NCBI GenBank assembly: GCA_027064585.1
Contig: JAMOPI010000036.1
Span: 127,777 to 191,776, forward strand
Source of the DNA: Candidatus Desulfofervidaceae bacterium
Lineage (GTDB): Bacteria; Desulfobacterota; Desulfofervidia; Desulfofervidales; Desulfofervidaceae
Direction: 5' to 3'
Length of the DNA stretch: 64,000 nucleotides
Shown here: positions 25,968 through 39,600 of the stretch, piece by piece
Numbering within the stretch: the stretch's first letter is position 1
How the letters are laid out: every line of letters begins with the position of its first letter
Notes under the pieces: generated by a model
Told to the model about the DNA's origin: nothing
The model's input: the letters and a program-made list of their open reading frames with translations, nothing else
Database searches by the model: none
Program-made: the position numbers and the translations under genes

Positions 25968-26834
25968 ATGGAAATAAGTTATCTTATTTTTTCTGACCTT
26001 GATGGTACTCTGCTTGACGCAGACACATATGATTTTACGCCTGCCAAAGAAGCCATAGAATTTCTTAAAGAGCACCAGTTTCCCCTTATCCTTTGTTCTA
26101 GTAAAACAAAGGCAGAAATAGAAGTCTATCGCGAAAAAATGGGACTAAAGGCCTATCCCTTTATCTCAGAAAACGGAGGAGCAATCTTTATCCCTAAGGG
26201 AAGTTTAAATTTAAACGGCTTTAATTATCAAATAAGATCTGGCTATTGCGTCATTGAACTGGGTATGCCCTCTGCCTATATCCAAAAATGTCTTTATAAG
26301 ATAAAACAACAGTTGCAAACTAAATTAAAGTGTCTTTCTGAAATGGATTTGGAAGAAATCATTGCCTTCACTAATCTACCTCCAGCAGAGGCCAAATTAG
26401 CTCAAAAAAGAGATTATTCTGAACCTATTATTTTTGCCGATATACCGGAAAAACTACCCGTTCTTAAAAGGGTTCTTCAGGAATACCGTCTTTATTTGAC
26501 AAAGGGAGGGAGATTTTATACGGTAATGGGTGGTAATGATAAAGGAAGGGCCGTAGAGATTTTAAAGAATATTTATCAACAGACATATCCTTATAAGAAG
26601 TTTGTTTCTATTGGTCTAGGTGACAGTCCTAACGACTTACCTCTGTTAGAGAAAGTGGATATTCCAGTAGTCGTAAGAAGAAAAGATGGTTCTCATCTTT
26701 CAATTCAACAGAGAAATGTCTATTTTACCCAATTTCCAGGTCCTAAAGGATGGGCCGAAGCTATATTTAAGATAATCAAGGAGGAAAAAAATGACGGACT
26801 TTTTTCAAAACGGGGTAATTGCTACCTTACATAG
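25968..26834 (+). CDS. gpgP: Glucosyl/mannosyl-3-phosphoglycerate phosphatase (HAD-IIB)
   Basis: 288 residues of the HAD superfamily, MPGP branch. Motif I FSDLDGTLLD (residues 8-17) contains the nucleophilic aspartate; motif IV GLGDSPNDLPLLE near residue 216 binds magnesium. It would remove phosphate from glucosyl- or mannosyl-3-phosphoglycerate to give the compatible solute. The next gene is the matching synthase, and its ATG lies 44 bp inside this gene, behind an AAGGAGG sequence. Glucosyl is favoured only because the synthase looks GpgS-like. Confidence 0.85.
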   Translation: MEISYLIFSDLDGTLLDADTYDFTPAKEAIEFLKEHQFPLILCSSKTKAEIEVYREKMGLKAYPFISENGGAIFIPKGSLNLNGFNYQIRSGYCVIELGMPSAYIQKCLYKIKQQLQTKLKCLSEMDLEEIIAFTNLPPAEAKLAQKRDYSEPIIFADIPEKLPVLKRVLQEYRLYLTKGGRFYTVMGGNDKGRAVEILKNIYQQTYPYKKFVSIGLGDSPNDLPLLEKVDIPVVVRRKDGSHLSIQQRNVYFTQFPGPKGWAEAIFKIIKEEKNDGLFSKRGNCYLT

Positions 26835-28011
26835 ATTAAATCCTGATAATGAAGAAGTGTTAATTAAAAAATTGCTTAAGTCTAAAAAGAGGCGACCCAT
26901 TGCCCTAGTTTTACCAGCCCTTTTTAGCGAATTTACGGGTAAGGCCCTGCCAAGGATTGTAGAAGAGCTAAAGAAGGTTAGCTACATAGATCAAATCGTT
27001 CTTAGCCTTGGCAAGGCCAATAAGGAGCAGTTCTTATATGCCAAAAAATTCCTTTCTTGCTTACCTCAAGAAACAGTTATCCTTTGGAACGATGGCCCAC
27101 GCTTGCAAGTCCTTTATCAAGAGTTGGAAGAAGAGTTTTTTTCCTGGGAAAGCGGCAAGGGTCTAGCTACTTGGATGGCTTATGGTTACGTGTTGGCTTG
27201 TAATAAGTGCCATGTTATTGTCTGTCATGATTGTGATATTTTAACTTATAAAAGAGAAATGCTCACGCGTCTTTGTTTTCCTATTGCCAGTACACAGCTT
27301 AATTATGAATTTTGTAAAGGTTATTATCCTCGCATTACTGACCGTATGCATGGTCGCGTAACACGGCTTTTTGTTACTCCTCTTATACGGGCATTAATAA
27401 AAATATTAGGCCACACTCCCTTTTTAGTCTATCTGGACAGTTTTCGCTATCCTCTGGCTGGAGAATTTGCCATGACCACAGAGCTGGCTTGGCGTATTCG
27501 CATTCCTTCTGATTGGGGGTTGGAAGTGGGGGTTTTAAGTGAGGTCTATCGTACTTCTACTTTGCGTAACATCTGTCAAGTAGACCTGGCCGAAAATTAT
27601 GAACACAAACATCAGGAACTTTCTCCTGAAGATGCAAGCAAAGGGCTTTTAAAAATGGCTGTAGATATTGCCAAGACCCTCTTCCGAACCCTAGCAGGAG
27701 AAGGCGTAGTCTTTTCTGACGGCTTTTTTAAGACGCTAAAGGCCACCTATGTGCGTGAAGCCCAAGATGCCTTAAGAAAATATCAAAATGACAGCATTAT
27801 TAATTCCCTCTTTTTTGATCGCCATGCCGAGGCCCTGGCCGTAGAGGCCTTTGCTAATGGTATCATCATTGCGGGTGAGCAAATTCTAGAAGATCCACTT
27901 GGCATTCCTCTTATTCCGAGTTGGAGTCGTGTGGGTTCAGCCTTACCTGAGTTTTTTGACAAATTGCAGGAAGCGGTAGAAGAAGATAATAAGATGGTGA
28001 ATGGTGATTAG
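26791..28011 (+). CDS. gpgS: Glucosyl-3-phosphoglycerate synthase-like glycosyltransferase (GT81)
   Basis: 406 residues. A GT-A-type fold with LVLPALFSE near residue 37, a DxD-like metal site in HDCDILTY near residue 147, and YPLAGEFAMTTELAWRIRIPSDWGLEVG near residue 220, which resembles GpgS/MpgS proteins. It would transfer glucose from a nucleotide donor to 3-phosphoglycerate. The 5' end overlaps gpgP by 44 bp, an unusually long overlap implying coupled translation. Such solutes protect against salt and heat and are known in Persephonella, methanogens and mycobacteria. Donor specificity (GDP- or UDP-glucose) cannot be read here. Confidence 0.82.
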   Translation: MTDFFQNGVIATLHRLNPDNEEVLIKKLLKSKKRRPIALVLPALFSEFTGKALPRIVEELKKVSYIDQIVLSLGKANKEQFLYAKKFLSCLPQETVILWNDGPRLQVLYQELEEEFFSWESGKGLATWMAYGYVLACNKCHVIVCHDCDILTYKREMLTRLCFPIASTQLNYEFCKGYYPRITDRMHGRVTRLFVTPLIRALIKILGHTPFLVYLDSFRYPLAGEFAMTTELAWRIRIPSDWGLEVGVLSEVYRTSTLRNICQVDLAENYEHKHQELSPEDASKGLLKMAVDIAKTLFRTLAGEGVVFSDGFFKTLKATYVREAQDALRKYQNDSIINSLFFDRHAEALAVEAFANGIIIAGEQILEDPLGIPLIPSWSRVGSALPEFFDKLQEAVEEDNKMVNGD

Positions 28012-28037
28012 TGAATTTAATATCAAAAGAGGTTAGA

Positions 28038-29327
28038 ATGTTTTACCAAGATGTCCTAAAAAAACTTTTTTGGTCAGGAATAAAGGCAGTTAATCCTTAT
28101 AAGGCCGTAAAAGAGACCTTAAAGGAGTATCAAGAAGAAATAAGGCGTTATAAAAACATTATCGTCATTGGTTTCGGCAAAGCCGCTTGTCCAATGGCTA
28201 GGGCAGTGGAAGAAATGTTGCTTGAAGACATAAAAGAGGGGCTGGTCATCACTAAATACAAACATGGCCAAGCGTTAAAGAAGATAAAAATTATAGAAGC
28301 AGGCCATCCGGTGCCAGATGCAAACGGAGTAAGGGGAACAGAAAAAATTTTAAGTATTATTAAAACCCACGCCAAAGAAAATACCCTTGGTCTCTGTTTG
28401 ATTTCTGGAGGTGGATCAGCCTTATTTGTTGCCCCTTATAAAGGGATTACCCTTAAAGAAAAACAGGCCGTTACCCAACTCTTGTTAAAGGCTGGTGCGG
28501 ATATTTATGAACTCAATGCCGTCAGAAAACATCTTTCTAAAGTGAAAGGAGGAAGATTGGCCGAAAAAGTTTATCCAGCCCGTTTAATTTCTTTTATCCT
28601 TTCTGATGTCATTGGTGACCGTCTAGATGTAATCGCCTCTGGTCCTACCGCTCCAGATGAGACAACTTATCAAGATGCTTGGGAGGTGTTAGAAAGGCAT
28701 AATTTACTTAAAAGCGTTTCTCCTCAAGTATTAAACCTGCTAGAAAAAGGGAAAAAAGGCCTTATTCCCGAAACCTTAAAGGCAAAACATCCGGTCTTTA
28801 AAAAGGTAAGCAATATCATTGTGGGCAGCAATCGCAAGGTCCTAAAGGCGATAAAAAAGGCTGCTCTAAAGCAAGGTTTTGTGGCTGAAGTTATTTCTTC
28901 CGACCTCCAAGGTGAAGCCAAAGAGGTAGCCAAACAGTTGGCCAAATTAGCCATAGAAAAACAGGCACAGCTTTGTGAGAAAACGAAATGTCTGATTAGT
29001 GGTGGAGAAACGACGGTCACCGTCAAGGGCAATGGATTGGGTGGAAGAAATATGGAATTAGCCCTGGCTTTTGCTTTAGAAATCGCGGGCAAAAAAGGTA
29101 TAAGTCTACTTTCAGCTGGAAGCGATGGCACTGATGGCCCTACAGATGCCGCTGGAGCCATTGTAGATGGTAAAACCGTTATTAAGGCCCAAAGAATGGG
29201 CATTGACCCAAAGGCATACTTAGAAAATAACGATTCCTACCACTTTTTTCAAAAAGTCGGCGGGCTGTTTGTTACTGGGCCTACCGGCACAAATGTGATG
29301 GACATTCAAATAATACTTATTAAATAG
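28038..29327 (+). CDS. Glycerate 2-kinase (GckA/MOFRL family)
   Basis: About 429 residues. GckA-type kinases phosphorylate D-glycerate to 2-phosphoglycerate. FGKAACPMA near residue 46, the glycine-rich LISGGGSALF near residue 122 and the C-terminal MOFRL-type region (GGRNMELALAFA ... SAGSDGTDGPTDAAGA) identify the family. GTG at 28011 shares a base with the gpgS stop, but ATG 28038 has an AAGAGG site and is preferred. Its link to gpgPS suggests recovery of glycerate released when glucosylglycerate is broken down. Confidence 0.85.
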   Translation: MFYQDVLKKLFWSGIKAVNPYKAVKETLKEYQEEIRRYKNIIVIGFGKAACPMARAVEEMLLEDIKEGLVITKYKHGQALKKIKIIEAGHPVPDANGVRGTEKILSIIKTHAKENTLGLCLISGGGSALFVAPYKGITLKEKQAVTQLLLKAGADIYELNAVRKHLSKVKGGRLAEKVYPARLISFILSDVIGDRLDVIASGPTAPDETTYQDAWEVLERHNLLKSVSPQVLNLLEKGKKGLIPETLKAKHPVFKKVSNIIVGSNRKVLKAIKKAALKQGFVAEVISSDLQGEAKEVAKQLAKLAIEKQAQLCEKTKCLISGGETTVTVKGNGLGGRNMELALAFALEIAGKKGISLLSAGSDGTDGPTDAAGAIVDGKTVIKAQRMGIDPKAYLENNDSYHFFQKVGGLFVTGPTGTNVMDIQIILIK

Positions 29328-29354: not shown

Positions 29355-30206
29355 ATGATTTCTATCTTAATGTGGGTTGAACGTTTATTTGACTATCTCC
29401 AAGCCCAGTGGCAAAAACCTCGGACCCACCGGGTCATAGGTTCTATGATAACCGCTAGTTTTATCTTTGCCTTAGGTATCATTGAGCTTAATCGGCAGCA
29501 TTTGTTGTCTAGTCCCTTAAATGTATTTATTCCCACTAATCACTTGGTAGCCATCAAATGGGCCTTTACCTTTTCACTTGTATTTGAAGTTATTAGTCTT
29601 ATCCTTTCTTTAGCCGAATCAGTTTCTATTTCCGTTGGCAAACAATTTGAAATCTTTTCTCTTGTTCTCTTGCGGGATGCATTTAAGGTCTTTTCTCATC
29701 TTAATGAGCCGCTGGTTTGGAAAGAAATTAAGCAAGCCCTTCCCTCTATTGTCGCTCCGGCCATTGGGGCACTCTTTATTTTTGTCATCCTTGGATTCTA
29801 TTACAAGGTTCAACATCACGCTCCGGTTATTAAGGATGGGCAAAGTAAAGCTACCTTTATTTTACTGAAAAAGACTATGGCCCTTATTTTATTAATCAGT
29901 TTTATTACTATTAGCTTAAATAATCTTTGGGGATATTTAACTAAGGGACAGCCAGAAACGGCCTTTGAGATATTTTTTACATTACTTATTTTTAGCGATG
30001 TTTTAATTGTTTTAATTTCATTAGCTTACAGTACAAAATACTGCGTGGTCTTTAGAAACTCCGCTTTTGCCGTAGCTACCCTCTGTATCCGGTTGGGTTT
30101 TATTGCCCCGGTTATAATAAGTGCCCTTCTTGGTGTTGGTGCTGTCCTCTTTGCCCTTGGGGTTACTATTGTCTATAACAAATTTGCCTTAATGGAGGGT
30201 AAGTAA
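29355..30206 (+). CDS. Integral membrane protein of unknown function
   Basis: 283 residues, not recognised. It has about six or seven hydrophobic segments (around 29-43, 68-88, 130-150, 170-190, 207-227 and 240-275), few charges between them, and no catalytic motif or signal peptide. It follows the glycerate kinase by 27 bp on the same strand and may be in the gpg operon, so a solute-related membrane role is possible but unproven. Its 3' end overlaps cooC on the other strand by 18 bp. Confidence 0.55.
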   Translation: MISILMWVERLFDYLQAQWQKPRTHRVIGSMITASFIFALGIIELNRQHLLSSPLNVFIPTNHLVAIKWAFTFSLVFEVISLILSLAESVSISVGKQFEIFSLVLLRDAFKVFSHLNEPLVWKEIKQALPSIVAPAIGALFIFVILGFYYKVQHHAPVIKDGQSKATFILLKKTMALILLISFITISLNNLWGYLTKGQPETAFEIFFTLLIFSDVLIVLISLAYSTKYCVVFRNSAFAVATLCIRLGFIAPVIISALLGVGAVLFALGVTIVYNKFALMEGK

Positions 30207-31067
30207 TTCACACTTTTCCAGACAGCTAGCAATAGCTTCAATCGCTTGTGTAAGGGTTGATTCTGGGAATTGATTGTAAAAATCAATTACGGCCGGTTCC
30301 AAGTCAAATAGCTTGTCCTCTTGGGGAAGGATAAAGATGTGGTTTACTTGGTTTTCTAAATCAAATTTAGTCATGAGAGTTTGTGCTTTCTGTTTTTCTT
30401 TTTCGCTGGCAATCCGATTAAGCACTAGATGAATATTTTTAATGCCAATATCTTTAGCCAGTTTAACCGCATGGGCAGCTACAGCCATAGCATTAAACGT
30501 GGCATCAGTTACTACTAGGCACTGCGAGAATCCCTTGGCCAGTGCCCGGCCAAAGTGTTCTACTCCTGCTTGTGTATCTAGAAGAATCAATTCATCTTGA
30601 CGCAAAGAAATGTGTTTCATCACTGCATCAAGCAGCGCATTCTCTGGACAAAGACAACCAGTGGCCGGTTGTACAACCGTTCCCATGACCAAAAAACTCA
30701 ATTTATCATTAAGCCTTATGCCAAATCTTTCTACTACGTCCTCTACGGGCGGATTTAACCTTAAAAAACTCCCCCAGCCTGTGCCTGGCCTAGCCCCTGT
30801 TTTTTCTTCTATGTAATCCAGATTCTGACTTAAGGGTTTAAGCTCAGTGGCCTTTTCTAAAGGATAACCCAAGGCAAAAGGAAGATTCATCTGGGGATCT
30901 TCATCCACCGCCAGCACCTTATAACCCTTGTTAACAAATGATTGGGCAAGGAGGACGGTTAAGGTTGTTTTACCCGCTCCACCCTTTCCTGTGATAATTA
31001 CCTTAAAACCATTAGTAATTCCCTCTTTCCTTAGCGATTTAATCTCTTCTACCGTCCTCTTGCCCAT
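30189..31067 (-). CDS. cooC: CO dehydrogenase nickel-insertion ATPase CooC
   Basis: 292 residues, a MinD/SIMIBI-class P-loop ATPase. The deviant Walker A GKGGAGKTT near residue 27, VDEDPQMNLP, the CLCPENALL segment (a CxC that binds nickel or zinc in CooC dimers) and LLDTQAGVEHFGR are all present. CooC loads nickel into the C-cluster of CO dehydrogenase. It starts 9 bp after the cooS stop, so the pair is an operon. About 20 residues precede the usual N-terminus, so the true start may be slightly further in. Confidence 0.92.
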   Translation of the reverse strand: MGKRTVEEIKSLRKEGITNGFKVIITGKGGAGKTTLTVLLAQSFVNKGYKVLAVDEDPQMNLPFALGYPLEKATELKPLSQNLDYIEEKTGARPGTGWGSFLRLNPPVEDVVERFGIRLNDKLSFLVMGTVVQPATGCLCPENALLDAVMKHISLRQDELILLDTQAGVEHFGRALAKGFSQCLVVTDATFNAMAVAAHAVKLAKDIGIKNIHLVLNRIASEKEKQKAQTLMTKFDLENQVNHIFILPQEDKLFDLEPAVIDFYNQFPESTLTQAIEAIASCLEKCELLTLH

Positions 31068-31076
31068 AAACTCCTC

Positions 31077-32990
31077 CTAAATTCCTAGTGCCTTTCTCTT
31101 TTCCATAATAATTTCTTCTATTATATCTGCTGTTTTTATCGGATCTTCTTCAACGAAGAAATAACCACCAATTAGATCTTTAAGATCTGCGGTCAAAATT
31201 TTAACCACCGTTTCACTTCCAGCAATGGGTGGCATAGGCCACAAATGCACTGGAATACCTGAGGCTACAAAATATGTCCCGATAGAAACAGCCTTTTCTG
31301 ACATCCATTCAGGTGCCGATCCTACCAATGGGAGGTCTGAAATATCCACTTTCATATAATCCGCAATGGCTCCTGCCAATGTTAACATCCTTGAGCAATC
31401 AACGCAAGAACCCATGTGCAATACAGGCGGAATATTAAGTGCCTGACAAACTTCTCTTAAGCCATCTCCAGCCATTTCCTGGGCTTTAAGTTGCATCAAT
31501 CCTGCCTTAGCACAAGCAATGGCCCAGCAGCCGGTGCCGATGACCAGAATATTTCTTTTTATCAACTCCTTTGTAATATTCACGTGATTGTAGTCATGTC
31601 TTACCTTGGGATTGTTACATCCCACTATTCCTGCCACTCCTTTGATTTTACCGGCGGCAATGGCATCTACCAAAGGTTTGGGACTCCCACCTAAAGCGCT
31701 TAATATACCTTCAGTGGTAAACCCCACTATTGCTTCGGTTTTATAAGAGGGAATATAAACACGACTTTTATCCCGACAAGGAAACGCCTCTATGGCTGTT
31801 TTTACAATTTCCTTAGCCACAGCCGTAGCGTGTCTTTCATCAAATTGGATATGCAAAGAACCTGGAAATTTTGCTTGATCACTGGTGGAGATGAATTTAG
31901 TATGAAAGCACTCAGCCAATTGTCCAAGGGCAGGATAAATACATTGGACATCAACTACCACCGCTTCAACCGCTCCAGTCATTACGGCTAGTTCCTGATG
32001 TAAAACATTTCCCGCAATAGGTATACCCTGACGCATTAACAGTTCGTTACCCGTGCAACACATACCTACGACATTAACTCCCTTAGCACCGTATTTTTGG
32101 GCTAAATTTTGCATCTCCTCTGATTGGGCTACCTCTACAATCTTCTCTGATAAAATGGGCTCATGGCCATGGGCGACAATGTTCACATAGTCAGCATCAA
32201 TTACTCCCAGATTGGCCATGATTGTCTTTACGGTAGGGGTGCCAAACAAAACATCTTGAATTTCAGTAGCAATCAACGAACCCCCCCAGCCATCTCCTAG
32301 TGCCGCCCGCACTCCTTGAAACAAAAGAGATACCGGATCGTTATCTACACCGATATGTGTTCTGTGCATGATGTCTACGATCTCTCTATCAATGTTACGA
32401 GGGAAGACACCTATTTTTTTAGAAGTCTTTTCAAAAAGGACCTTCTCCAAATTCTGCCAGCATTCAATTCTTTTTTTAGGAGCATAGGAGAGAAGAAATT
32501 TAATAGGGGTATCGTCTTGTTTTCCATAGTCTTTCATGGCAATTTCAGCTACCTCTTTAGCCAATTCTTCAGGTTTTTTATCTGTAGAAATTCCCAGTTT
32601 GCTGGCAATTAATTTCAGCTTTTCTACATCTTTAATTTGATAATCCCTATTCTCCCCTTCAGCCACTTCTTTTAACGTCATGGCTAGGGGACGTCCGTGA
32701 TCAGAATGGGCAGCAGCTCCCGCGGCAATGGCCCGTATGAGATTTCTTGCCACAATAATGTCTGCTGTCGCTCCACAGGCACCTTTAGGTGTCTTTTTGG
32801 TAATACGGCAGGGCCCCATGGCACAGTTTTTACAACATACCCCTGCGCTTCCAAATTTACAATGTGGAGTCTGCGCATCTTCCCTATCCCAAGCCGTTTC
32901 ATATCCTCTGGCTTCAGCCAGCTTTAACATCTCCTGCGCGGCAGGATCGATACTCCTTTGTAAATACTTCTCTTGTCCTTCTGCCTTCAT
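31077..32990 (-). CDS. cooS: Anaerobic nickel-iron CO dehydrogenase catalytic subunit
   Basis: 637 residues, full length. It interconverts CO and CO2 with ferredoxin-type partners. Cysteine pattern CKFGSAGVCCKNCAMGPC near residue 42 supplies the B- and D-clusters. C-cluster ligand segments follow: HGHEP, MCCTGNE, VQCIYP, GCNNP, GTGCWAIACAKAG and MGSCVDCSR. The ATG at 32990 has an ideal AAGGAGG site; an upstream in-frame ATG is less likely. It is followed by cooC. No CooF, hydrogenase or acetyl-CoA synthase genes are in the window, so its pathway (Wood-Ljungdahl or CO scavenging) is open. Confidence 0.95.
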   Translation of the reverse strand: MKAEGQEKYLQRSIDPAAQEMLKLAEARGYETAWDREDAQTPHCKFGSAGVCCKNCAMGPCRITKKTPKGACGATADIIVARNLIRAIAAGAAAHSDHGRPLAMTLKEVAEGENRDYQIKDVEKLKLIASKLGISTDKKPEELAKEVAEIAMKDYGKQDDTPIKFLLSYAPKKRIECWQNLEKVLFEKTSKKIGVFPRNIDREIVDIMHRTHIGVDNDPVSLLFQGVRAALGDGWGGSLIATEIQDVLFGTPTVKTIMANLGVIDADYVNIVAHGHEPILSEKIVEVAQSEEMQNLAQKYGAKGVNVVGMCCTGNELLMRQGIPIAGNVLHQELAVMTGAVEAVVVDVQCIYPALGQLAECFHTKFISTSDQAKFPGSLHIQFDERHATAVAKEIVKTAIEAFPCRDKSRVYIPSYKTEAIVGFTTEGILSALGGSPKPLVDAIAAGKIKGVAGIVGCNNPKVRHDYNHVNITKELIKRNILVIGTGCWAIACAKAGLMQLKAQEMAGDGLREVCQALNIPPVLHMGSCVDCSRMLTLAGAIADYMKVDISDLPLVGSAPEWMSEKAVSIGTYFVASGIPVHLWPMPPIAGSETVVKILTADLKDLIGGYFFVEEDPIKTADIIEEIIMEKRKALGI

Positions 32991-33033
32991 GGCTAGACCT
33001 CCTTTTAGTAATTTTAACACTACTATTTCCTTG

Positions 33034-33121
33034 ATTTTATTAAATCTAGGTTTAAAACAAAAATGTAGAAAAAATGTATAAACTGAATAATAAGTGGATA
33101 AAAAGGGGAATAGGCGGATAA
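33034..33121 (-). promoter_or_regulatory. cooS control region: direct repeats and -10-like box
   Basis: Two 13-bp direct repeats lie exactly 20 bp apart at 33089-33101 and 33109-33121 (minus strand TTATCCACTTATT and TTATCCGCCTATT, 11 of 13 identical). Nearer cooS, the nine-base sequence TACATTTTT occurs twice at 11-bp spacing, and TAAAAT (33034-33039) could be a -10 box without a good -35. Same-phase direct repeats two helical turns apart are what LytTR regulators typically bind, and a LytTR gene lies next door. Confidence 0.4.
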
Positions 33122-33125
33122 GAAG

Positions 33126-33818
33126 TTAGCGGAGACCAAAAAGTTTCAGGAAGGTATTTATTTTACTTCTACTTAAAGGCAGATCTGAACCGTCCTTCAT
33201 TAAAATGCGATATCTGTTTTCAGTCTTTTTTAACTTCTGAACGGAATTTATATTGATGATAAAGCTTTTATGAATTCTCACAAACCGTTCAGGAGAAAGT
33301 TTGTTTTCAATCTTTCTCAGAGATAATGGACTTAAAAATTTCCTTTTCTGAGAGACCACCTCAGTATAATTCCCTCTAGCGGCAAAAAAATCAATATTTT
33401 TTACTTCTAAAAGTAAAAAGTCATCTCCTTCATATACCGGAAATTTGACAATAAAGTCCTCTTCATTGGTCAAAAGGGTAGTAACATCATAAAGCAGGGC
33501 CACAAAAGTGGCCTGACATTGACCATGAAGCAGGAAGACTTTACCTAGAAACATGATTTCTTTATCACTACCATTTTTATAAACCTTAATAACATAACTA
33601 CCACTTTTATTCTTCTCTACTGCCTCAGCGGTCATTTTTTGGATCTTGGCAAATGCTTGCGGAGAATGAAGCTGGGAGAGATTATAAGTTGACTCTAAAC
33701 TAATTCCAAAAAGTTCGCTTATGGTCTTATTTACGCAGAGAATGTCATAATTTCCATCAAATACAACAACACCTACCTTAAAGGTGCGCTTCAAAATGTC
33801 CAGCGTCAAAGAAAGCAT
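33126..33818 (-). CDS. PAS-LytTR regulator, RcoM-like (candidate CO sensor)
   Basis: 230 residues: an N-terminal PAS domain (about 5-115) and a C-terminal LytTR DNA-binding domain (about 130-230, with FFAARGNYTEVVSQ and FVRIHKSFIININSV). This is the architecture of RcoM, the haem-based CO regulator of Burkholderia, where a histidine in an LHPP-like motif binds haem. Here QLHSPQAF puts His51 at an equivalent place; the second ligand cannot be assigned. It sits directly upstream of cooS-cooC on the same strand. If it binds haem it would switch on CO oxidation. A generic redox PAS regulator is the alternative. Confidence 0.7.
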   Translation of the reverse strand: MLSLTLDILKRTFKVGVVVFDGNYDILCVNKTISELFGISLESTYNLSQLHSPQAFAKIQKMTAEAVEKNKSGSYVIKVYKNGSDKEIMFLGKVFLLHGQCQATFVALLYDVTTLLTNEEDFIVKFPVYEGDDFLLLEVKNIDFFAARGNYTEVVSQKRKFLSPLSLRKIENKLSPERFVRIHKSFIININSVQKLKKTENRYRILMKDGSDLPLSRSKINTFLKLFGLR

Positions 33819-34070
33819 AAAATTAAACCTGCCTTTTTATTCCCTATTGTTCAATTTAGGCAACTTATCCATCTGGCAATTTACATTGTAGCGTTCTCTT
33901 CTTTAGACTGTCAAGGCTATAGCACCTTTCCCATGATCTGTAACAATCTGGTAAGATCGTATAGATAAGCTTGCTAAAAAACTTGAAGAAAAGAATAGAG
34001 AACAGTGTCGGTTTACCCTGTAAATGTTTTCTTATCACTGTTGGTCTTTCTTTACTTGTTACTTCAGGAA

Positions 34071-36694: not shown

Positions 36695-39600
36695 TTACCT
36701 CCTTTTTTTCTTTGTCAACCACTCTTCTATCTTCTTCTTAAAGATAAAAGGATCAACTGGTTTAGCCAGATAATCATCACAACCTGCAGCTAAAACCTTT
36801 TCCCGATCTCCCCGCATAGCCCGAGCAGTTAAACCAATGATAGGTATATTTTTTAATGTAGGATCCTTTTTTAACCGCTGTGTCGCCTCATAGCCATCCA
36901 TTATCGGCATCAACATATCCATGATAATTAAATCAGGCTTTATCCTTTGTGCCTGTTCTATGGCTTGAACCCCATTTGGGGCTGTATGGATGGTGTAATT
37001 AGTATCCTTCAATGCCTCTTTTAAAAGAAAAAGATTATCCGGATTATCTTCTACAATAAGGATCTTAGCCGGGCCAGCAGAAGTTGTATCTAAAGATGGT
37101 TGAAGAGGTTTTTGGAGCGATTCTGTTTTAATTTCTGTTTCTGGATATAAAATCTGCCTTACAACTTTAATTAAGCTGGTCTTATCTATTTGCCCTTTCA
37201 GCAAAATTGCCTTAACATTTGGAGGAAATCGCCTTTTTTCTTCTTCAGTTAAGTCTATAGCAGAGAGTATAATAACCGGTATATCTTTCATTTTCTCATC
37301 TTTTTGTAACAATTCTAAAACCGTAAACCCATCCATTCCAGGCATCCTTAAGTCAAGGATGAGCAAATCAGGCCTGAATTTTTTGATAAACTCCAATCCC
37401 TTCTCTCCGGTATAGGCAAAAGATAACTCACAATTTTCGTCCTTAAGCAACACCTTCAACTCTTGAGTCACAATAGGATCATCGTCAATAATCAATATCT
37501 GCTTTTTTGTTCTCATTGAAGAAGGAACAGGCTTAGAAACTTTTTCTTTGCTCAGAAGAGCGGTCTTAATTTTTCCTTTCCAATCTTTACTTAATTTTTC
37601 CCTCTTTATAGGTCTCTTAGGAAGAATAACGGTAAACACAGAGCCTTTGTTTAATTTACTTTTTACCTTTATTTCTCCCCCTAGTAAATCAACCAATTTT
37701 TTGACAATACTTAAACCTAAACCAGTGCCACCATATTTTTTGGTAGTAGAGCCATCTACTTGCCGAAAGACGTCAAAGATATAGTCTAATGCCTCTTCAG
37801 GAATGCCAATGCCCGTATCTTTAACGCTTATAAGGATATTGCCGTCTTTTTCTTCTATAATCACTGCTACCTCACCCTTTTCGGTAAATTTAATCGCATT
37901 GCTTAATAGGTTGAGTAAAATCTGGCGGAGCTTTTCTGGATCTGTAACAATATAATCTACCTTTCCTTTAAATATACTTTTAAGAATCAGTCCTTTTTCC
38001 TCTGCTAATGGACGGACAGATTTAAGTAGTTCGTTAATAAATTCTTTTAGGAAAATTTTATTCCAAATAATTTCTACCTTTCCAGCTTCAATTTTTGATA
38101 GATCCAGAACGTCGTTAATCAAGGCCAAGAGATTTTCACCGTTACGCTCAATAATATCCAAATAATCACGCTGTTTTTCGGTTATTTTACCCCCTACACC
38201 TGCCTTTAACAATTTGGTCATACCCAGAATAGCATTAAGGGGAGTTCTTAACTCATGAGACATATTAGAGAGAAATTCAGACTTAAGCCGATTGGCCTCT
38301 TCTACCTGGCGTGTCTTTTCCTCCAAGGCCTTCTTTTGGGCACTCAGTTCTTCGGCCTGCGCCTTAAGTTCTTCGTTTAAGGCTATCAATTCCTCTCCTT
38401 GGGCCTTTAATTCCTCATTCTGAGAGATCAAAAGTTCGTTCTTTTCTTGTAATTCTTTGGCCAAGATTTCAACCCGTTGATAGCTCAACGCATGGTCAAT
38501 TCCTACTCCAATGGAGTCAGCGACGATGTTTAAAAACTGAAAGAGTTGTTCTGAAAAAGGACTAAAGGCAGCCAGTTCTAGCACACCAATAAGTTGATCT
38601 TTAAACATAATAGGCAAACAGACAATATATTGAGGCAATCGCTCTCCACTACCTGAAGTCACCTTAAAATAATCAGAAGGGACATCGGAGACCACAATTG
38701 TTTCCCTCTCTTGTGCACATTGACCAGGGAGCCCTTCACCCAATTTTAAAACAGGAACCTTTTTCTTATCCAAGGCATAAGCAGCCATGGGTTTTAATTG
38801 TCCGTCTTTGTGTAAATAAATTACTCCCAATTGACTTTTTGTATGATGGGCAACCTTTGTTAAAACATCTTCAAGTAAAGGCTGAAGTTCAATTATTTGG
38901 CTTAAGGAAGTTAAAATGTCAGTATAGGCCCGCTGCGTGGTAAGGGTAAGATGAAGGTCTTTAGTTTTTTTCTCTAACTCTTGGATAAACTTCTTTCTTT
39001 CCGTAATATCTACAAATATTTCTATAATACCAATGACTTTTCCCTTACTATCCTTAAAAGGGGTGCCAAAACACTGGCATGGGATTTCCCTTCCATCAGG
39101 TGTAATTCGCACTTCTTCTCGGGCAACCTTTTGGCGGCCTTCTAAGACTAGATGCAAGGTACAATCTTTTGTTCGGCAATAAGAACACCTGAACAGCTTG
39201 TAACACTTTTCCCCGATAGCCTTTTCGGTGCTAACTCCCACTAATTTACTCATGGCCTTGTTTTGACTTATTACTTTAAACTTGGCATCAACTACCCGAA
39301 TAGGGGTAGGCACACCGTTATAAATTTGATTCAATTCGTTAAACAGCCTTTCAATTTCTTCTTGCGTGCTTTTAATCTTTTCTGTCATCTGGTTAAAAAC
39401 ATTGGCCAACTCTCCTATTTCATCTCTTGTTTTTATTTCTACTTTAGTATCTAAATTTCCTTGACCAATGGCCTTTGCCGCCAAACTAAGAGTAAGTATA
39501 GGCCTGCTAATGAAATGAGAAAGGAGATATGCTAGTCCAATGCCTAGTAGACTAACTAACCCCATTACACCAGCTACTAGTTTAAGGATATGGTGAACCC

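Follow-up and report, generated by a model that had tools for sequence, protein, structure and literature searches.

An RcoM-like PAS-LytTR regulator upstream of cooS and cooC in a Candidatus Desulfofervidaceae bacterium, a probable CO sensor with an altered distal haem side

A gene for a regulator resembling RcoM is found beside genes for an oxygen-sensitive Ni-dependent CO dehydrogenase (Ni-CODH) in a Candidatus Desulfofervidaceae bacterium. The locus raises the question of whether this regulator senses CO through haem and controls the CODH genes, and whether it does so by the ligand chemistry of RcoM. The best explanation, given a probability of roughly 0.6 on the basis of sequence comparison, is that it is a one-component haem-based CO sensor which acts as a transcription activator of the downstream cooS-cooC operon.

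The three genes lie on the minus strand of the window, the whole stretch of 64,000 nucleotides that was analyzed, and are transcribed in the order regulator, cooS, cooC. The ORF map thus agrees with the first-pass annotation, which placed the regulator directly upstream of cooS and cooC on the same strand. The span given there, 31077-33818, includes the regulator and cooS, but cooC lies outside it at 30189..31067. The regulator (33126..33818, 230 aa) is designated as an RcoM-like PAS-LytTR single-component protein based on its ORF, its LytTR domain, and the tree and alignment with RcoM-type proteins linked to cox genes.

The cooS gene (31077..32990) encodes a protein of 637 aa from the ATG at 32990, the likely start, which is preceded by AAAGGAGGT; the ORF list gave a GTG at 33020. 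The protein matches TIGR01702 with 764.9 bits and can be aligned end to end with CODHs of solved structure, the best match being 6t7j. The His and Cys motifs that would supply the cluster ligands in the CODH family are present. A genome-wide search found a single copy of CooS in this genome, and likewise in the congener genome. Six genomes of the family and order gave no match to the acetyl-CoA synthase CdhC, and CooS, the catalytic subunit, is therefore probably a monofunctional CODH, as judged from sequence. The idea of an operon serving acetyl-CoA synthase was dropped for the same reason.

The protein encoded downstream of cooS is a MinD/ParA-like P-loop ATPase according to family profile matches. 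It is a predicted nickel-insertion factor for CODH, and the name CooC was assigned from the place of its gene after cooS. No cooF or oxidoreductase gene follows cooC at this locus; a convergent ORF (29355-30206) comes next, and the end of the cooC gene overlaps with it. Farther along, a HAD-type phosphatase gene, a possible glycosyl-phosphoglycerate synthase gene without a Pfam match, and a DUF4147/MOFRL glycerate-kinase-like gene are consecutive at 25968-29327 of the window, a row that is perhaps related to compatible-solute metabolism.

The regulator has the domain order of RcoM, as the first-pass annotation proposed. The LytTR DNA-binding domain (residues 134-227; 33138..33419, minus strand) matches PF04397 with 84.3 bits. 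The N-terminal PAS-type sensor domain (residues 1-120; 33459..33818, minus strand) is weak in Pfam when scanned alone, with an e-value of 0.0026 for PF00989, under the Pfam cut-off; the N-terminal domain of the cox-linked protein of P. aromaticivorans is likewise only a weak PAS in Pfam. The homology was indicated by hhalign: the N-terminal profile of the regulator's clade and the profile of cox-linked RcoM-type proteins aligned over 110 columns with the e-value 4.3e-9 and a probability of 96. PDB sequence searches with the N-terminal domain returned no clear PAS relative, and a profile search of the genome contigs with a six-sequence alignment returned mostly generic LytTR response regulators. 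AlphaFold2, run with three sequences, gave a mean pLDDT of 57.4. The LytTR half was modelled well; for most of residues 1-123 the pLDDT stayed under 50, which weakens the CO-sensor reading to the extent that the PAS domain has no confident model.

In a tree of 21 sequences, the regulators are divided into two clades, each supported at 98/95 with a long-branch warning. This regulator shares its clade with its congener L033, with five small genomes of thermophile-like character (L152-L156), and with members of two other families. Its sister clade consists of the cox-linked proteins and four others, two of which adjoin cooS. The comparison with the characterized RcoM-1 and RcoM-2 of Paraburkholderia xenovorans was made through cox-linked homologs from P. 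aromaticivorans and Caballeronia, which stand in for the P. xenovorans sequences. The P. aromaticivorans gene is carried by a plasmid, where a single gene separates it from the divergently oriented coxMSL, and a Caballeronia plasmid carries a similar cox-linked locus. In the Caballeronia protein, a His, a Cys, and a Met are spaced like the RcoM ligands usually numbered His74, Cys94, and Met104.

This regulator shares with RcoM-1 and RcoM-2 the one-component PAS-LytTR layout, the linkage to CO dehydrogenase genes, and the equivalent of His74. The latter is His51 (33666..33668, minus strand), in the context SQLHSPQAF. It is the predicted proximal haem ligand; hhalign placed it on the His of the cox type, and it is invariant in 21 of 21 sequences, where Gly16, Val18, and Asn30 are the only other invariant positions of the PAS domain. 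The alignment therefore supports the choice of this residue as the haem-motif histidine in the first-pass annotation. That annotation also considered the second haem ligand not evident, which can now be stated exactly. The regulator differs from RcoM-1 and RcoM-2 in having neither Met104 nor Cys94 with its loop. The Met104 position is Ile77, followed by Lys78 (33585..33590, minus strand). At this position Ile, Leu, or Phe is observed in all 17 clade members seen (15 of 15 in the alignment and two more loci), and the next residue is always Lys; all six sister-clade sequences have Met. The run from His51 to Ile77 is ungapped and equal in length to that of L157, a Met-type protein, and the replacement is therefore independent of gap placement. 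A four-residue deletion removes the Cys94 position from every sequence without cox linkage, whether or not Met104 is kept. As Met104, the ferrous ligand replaceable by CO, and Cys94, the ferric ligand, are the known distal ligands of the characterized proteins, their absence weakens an RcoM-like CO-sensor reading.

The genomic neighborhood bears on the function. Among 19 full-length PAS-LytTR homologs from several families, a sample of one phylum that includes this regulator and its congener, 16 are adjacent to cooS. The gene order varies: the regulator precedes cooS in some families and follows it in L152-L156. Adjacency in several families and in both gene orders is more than would be expected by chance and suggests a functional link between the regulator and cooS. 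In L157, which keeps Met104, the regulator and cooS are followed by ferredoxin-like and oxidoreductase genes. Two members of the Lys-containing clade, L151 (6438-7145) and L200 (3880-4572), have no cooS within the stretch read, and they weaken the reading of the regulator as a CO sensor for cooS. At 4598-5659 of L154, cooS is broken by a transposase-like gene, and the neighboring regulator is intact. In the family-mate genome G004 (L034, 6900-7776), what is left of the regulator, cooS, and cooC beside ndk is a set of internally deleted fragments. This remnant points to a loss of the whole operon; it may also be an assembly artefact.

It was implied by the first-pass annotation that an RcoM beside a Ni-CODH is new. 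This does not hold, as rcoM-cooS-cooC clusters have been published from Geobacter sulfurreducens (PMC4703632) and Deferribacter autotrophicus (PMC6896113), and the regulator-cooS neighborhood alone is not new. The clusters of G. sulfurreducens (GSU2099-2095) and D. autotrophicus (rcoM-cooS-cooC-cooF-FNOR) resemble this locus in gene order, with rcoM directly before cooS and cooC, but there cooF and FNOR follow, unlike here. For Ni-CODH genes, other bacteria have a haem-based CO sensor, CooA, which belongs to the CRP/FNR superfamily and is not a PAS-LytTR protein. The ligand-altered clade and the 20-bp repeat triplet before cooS described below were not found in the literature searched, which did not extend to the founding RcoM papers.

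The signal itself might be other than CO. The LytTR protein would then regulate cooS while its PAS domain responds to, for example, redox through another cofactor. The absence of the usual distal ligands fits this alternative, as does the variety of cofactors bound by PAS domains, and most of the thermophile subgroup retains Cys28 and Cys101. However, the invariance of His51 extends to the cox-linked proteins, and it is mostly CO dehydrogenase genes that the regulators are linked to. A non-CO signal is therefore considered unlikely.

If CO is the signal, as preferred here, haem would be held in the PAS domain on His51, and CO binding to the ferrous haem would alter the conformation of the regulator. 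Because Met104, the ligand displaced by CO in Paraburkholderia RcoM, is absent throughout the clade, the ferrous haem may be five-coordinate or held by another residue, for which Lys78 is the first candidate. A ferrous haem of the canonical His/Met type would need a Met from elsewhere, such as Met62 or Met89. Met62 is kept in nearly all of the clade, but it lies on a helix predicted with low confidence just after His51 (residues 53-68) and would hardly reach the opposite face of the haem; Met89 is on the next predicted strand, but it is not kept in the congener. This arrangement appears quite improbable.

The regulator is not designated as an RcoM by His/Met haem chemistry here, as the Met104 position was tested by alignment and the Met is absent. 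It is likely to be RcoM-like in its working, with the distal side of the haem altered. A broader proposal, for which the balance is even, is that in anaerobes a clade sister to RcoM senses CO by haem without a displaceable Met, the haem being five-coordinate or Lys78 being displaced, with a ligand exchange different from that of aerobic RcoM. The accepted mechanism of RcoM depends on the displacement of Met104 by CO. An entire Ni-CODH-associated clade which keeps the proximal ligand without this Met would be a natural test of the role of Met in the switch, and it also allows one to ask whether the Met is of use to organisms living in oxygen.

In the gap between the regulator and cooS, a candidate operator was recognized at 33067..33122 on the minus strand. 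It consists of three 16-bp direct repeats (CTTATCCGCCTATTCC, TTTATCCACTTATTAT, and TTTATACATTTTTTCT) with an exact 20-bp period, the first of which begins four bases past the stop codon of the regulator. Shuffled sequences were as good as this triplet in 1 of 100 cases here and 0 of 100 in the congener; these counts are descriptive, since the repeats were first spotted by eye and both the score and the spacing range of 19-23 for the 17 regions were chosen after the repeats had been noticed in these two loci. Nowhere else in the 64-kb window does a triple repeat with a period of 20 reach that score. The pattern TTATHC-N14-TTATHC-N14-TTATHC, drawn from the operator sites of this locus and the congener, has no other zero-mismatch match in either whole genome.

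Held-out loci were examined with a matrix from the two loci of this genus, applied to cooS upstream regions at 64 spacings. Built from this genus only, the matrix picked out 20-bp triplets before cooS in other families: the 20/20 spacing ranked first of the 64 in L152 (0 of 500 shuffles) and in L153 (3 of 500), and second in L156 (0 of 500). The triplet was weak in L155 (26 of 500), and the genus matrix gave no 20/20 triplet in L154 within 200 bases upstream of cooS. The remnant in G004 has a triplet at 21/20. In a second scan, L152 was added to the matrix, and whole loci were covered on both strands at nine spacings. The top match was a 20/20 triplet upstream of cooS in L153, L154, and L156, located in L154 about 240 bases upstream; L155 had no such top match, and neither did L200 and L201, two loci in which cooS is missing or cut off. 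The operator reading is weakened by the weak triplet in L155 and by its absence in the orphan locus L200.

Three direct repeats, separated by 12-13 bp, make up the RcoM1 operator (PMC11347149), and those of RcoM-1 and RcoM-2 have periods of 20-21 bp. Judged by sequence, the candidate operator has this architecture in common, but not the letters. Neither this locus nor the thermophile relatives showed a TTNNNG triplet before cooS; as a control, TTNNNG triplets at 20-21 bp were found near coxM in two cox loci. The lack of the TTNNNG core of the RcoM1 operator weakens an RcoM-like reading of these repeats, and a further difference from RcoM-1 and RcoM-2 is the linkage to Ni-CODH instead of cox. 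The conserved 20-bp triplet is a concrete candidate operator and a handle for seeking CO-regulated genes in anaerobes.

A candidate sigma-70 promoter of the regulator gene, TTGACA-18-TACAAT, matching 11 of 12 consensus positions, is located at 33885..33914 on the minus strand. The consensus scan reported no comparable sigma-70 site between the regulator and cooS. A strong promoter-like site at the regulator and none reported before cooS fit a dependence of cooS on an activator. The regulator would probably be produced constantly, through a promoter of its own. In its CO-bound form, its LytTR domains would bind cooperatively to the three repeats upstream of cooS, and cooS-cooC transcription would be switched on from there. 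Haem binding, CO response, operator binding, and activation are what we infer for this regulator. A repressor of cooS released by CO is very doubtful. The CO-responsive CoxC of Afipia carboxidovorans, a repressor of cox genes with a membrane MHYT sensor and no PAS domain, also has a LytTR domain acting on three direct repeats (PMC11347149). However, the CoxC operator is one that overlaps with the -35 box, and here no consensus promoter overlapping the repeats was reported; moreover RcoM, the nearest relative by architecture, is an activator (PMC11347149).

Before the regulator or cooS in other families (17 and 14 regions), no clear triple repeat was found except in L037, L149, and L150. These three related, mutually non-independent loci carry a GC-rich triplet at 21/20 before cooS, with 2, 1, and 9 of 100 shuffles as good, respectively. 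Elsewhere in the window, 21-bp repeats at 38340-38361 lie within a large hybrid kinase gene and match a repetitive stretch of its protein (EELKAQGEELIALNEELKAQAEEL).
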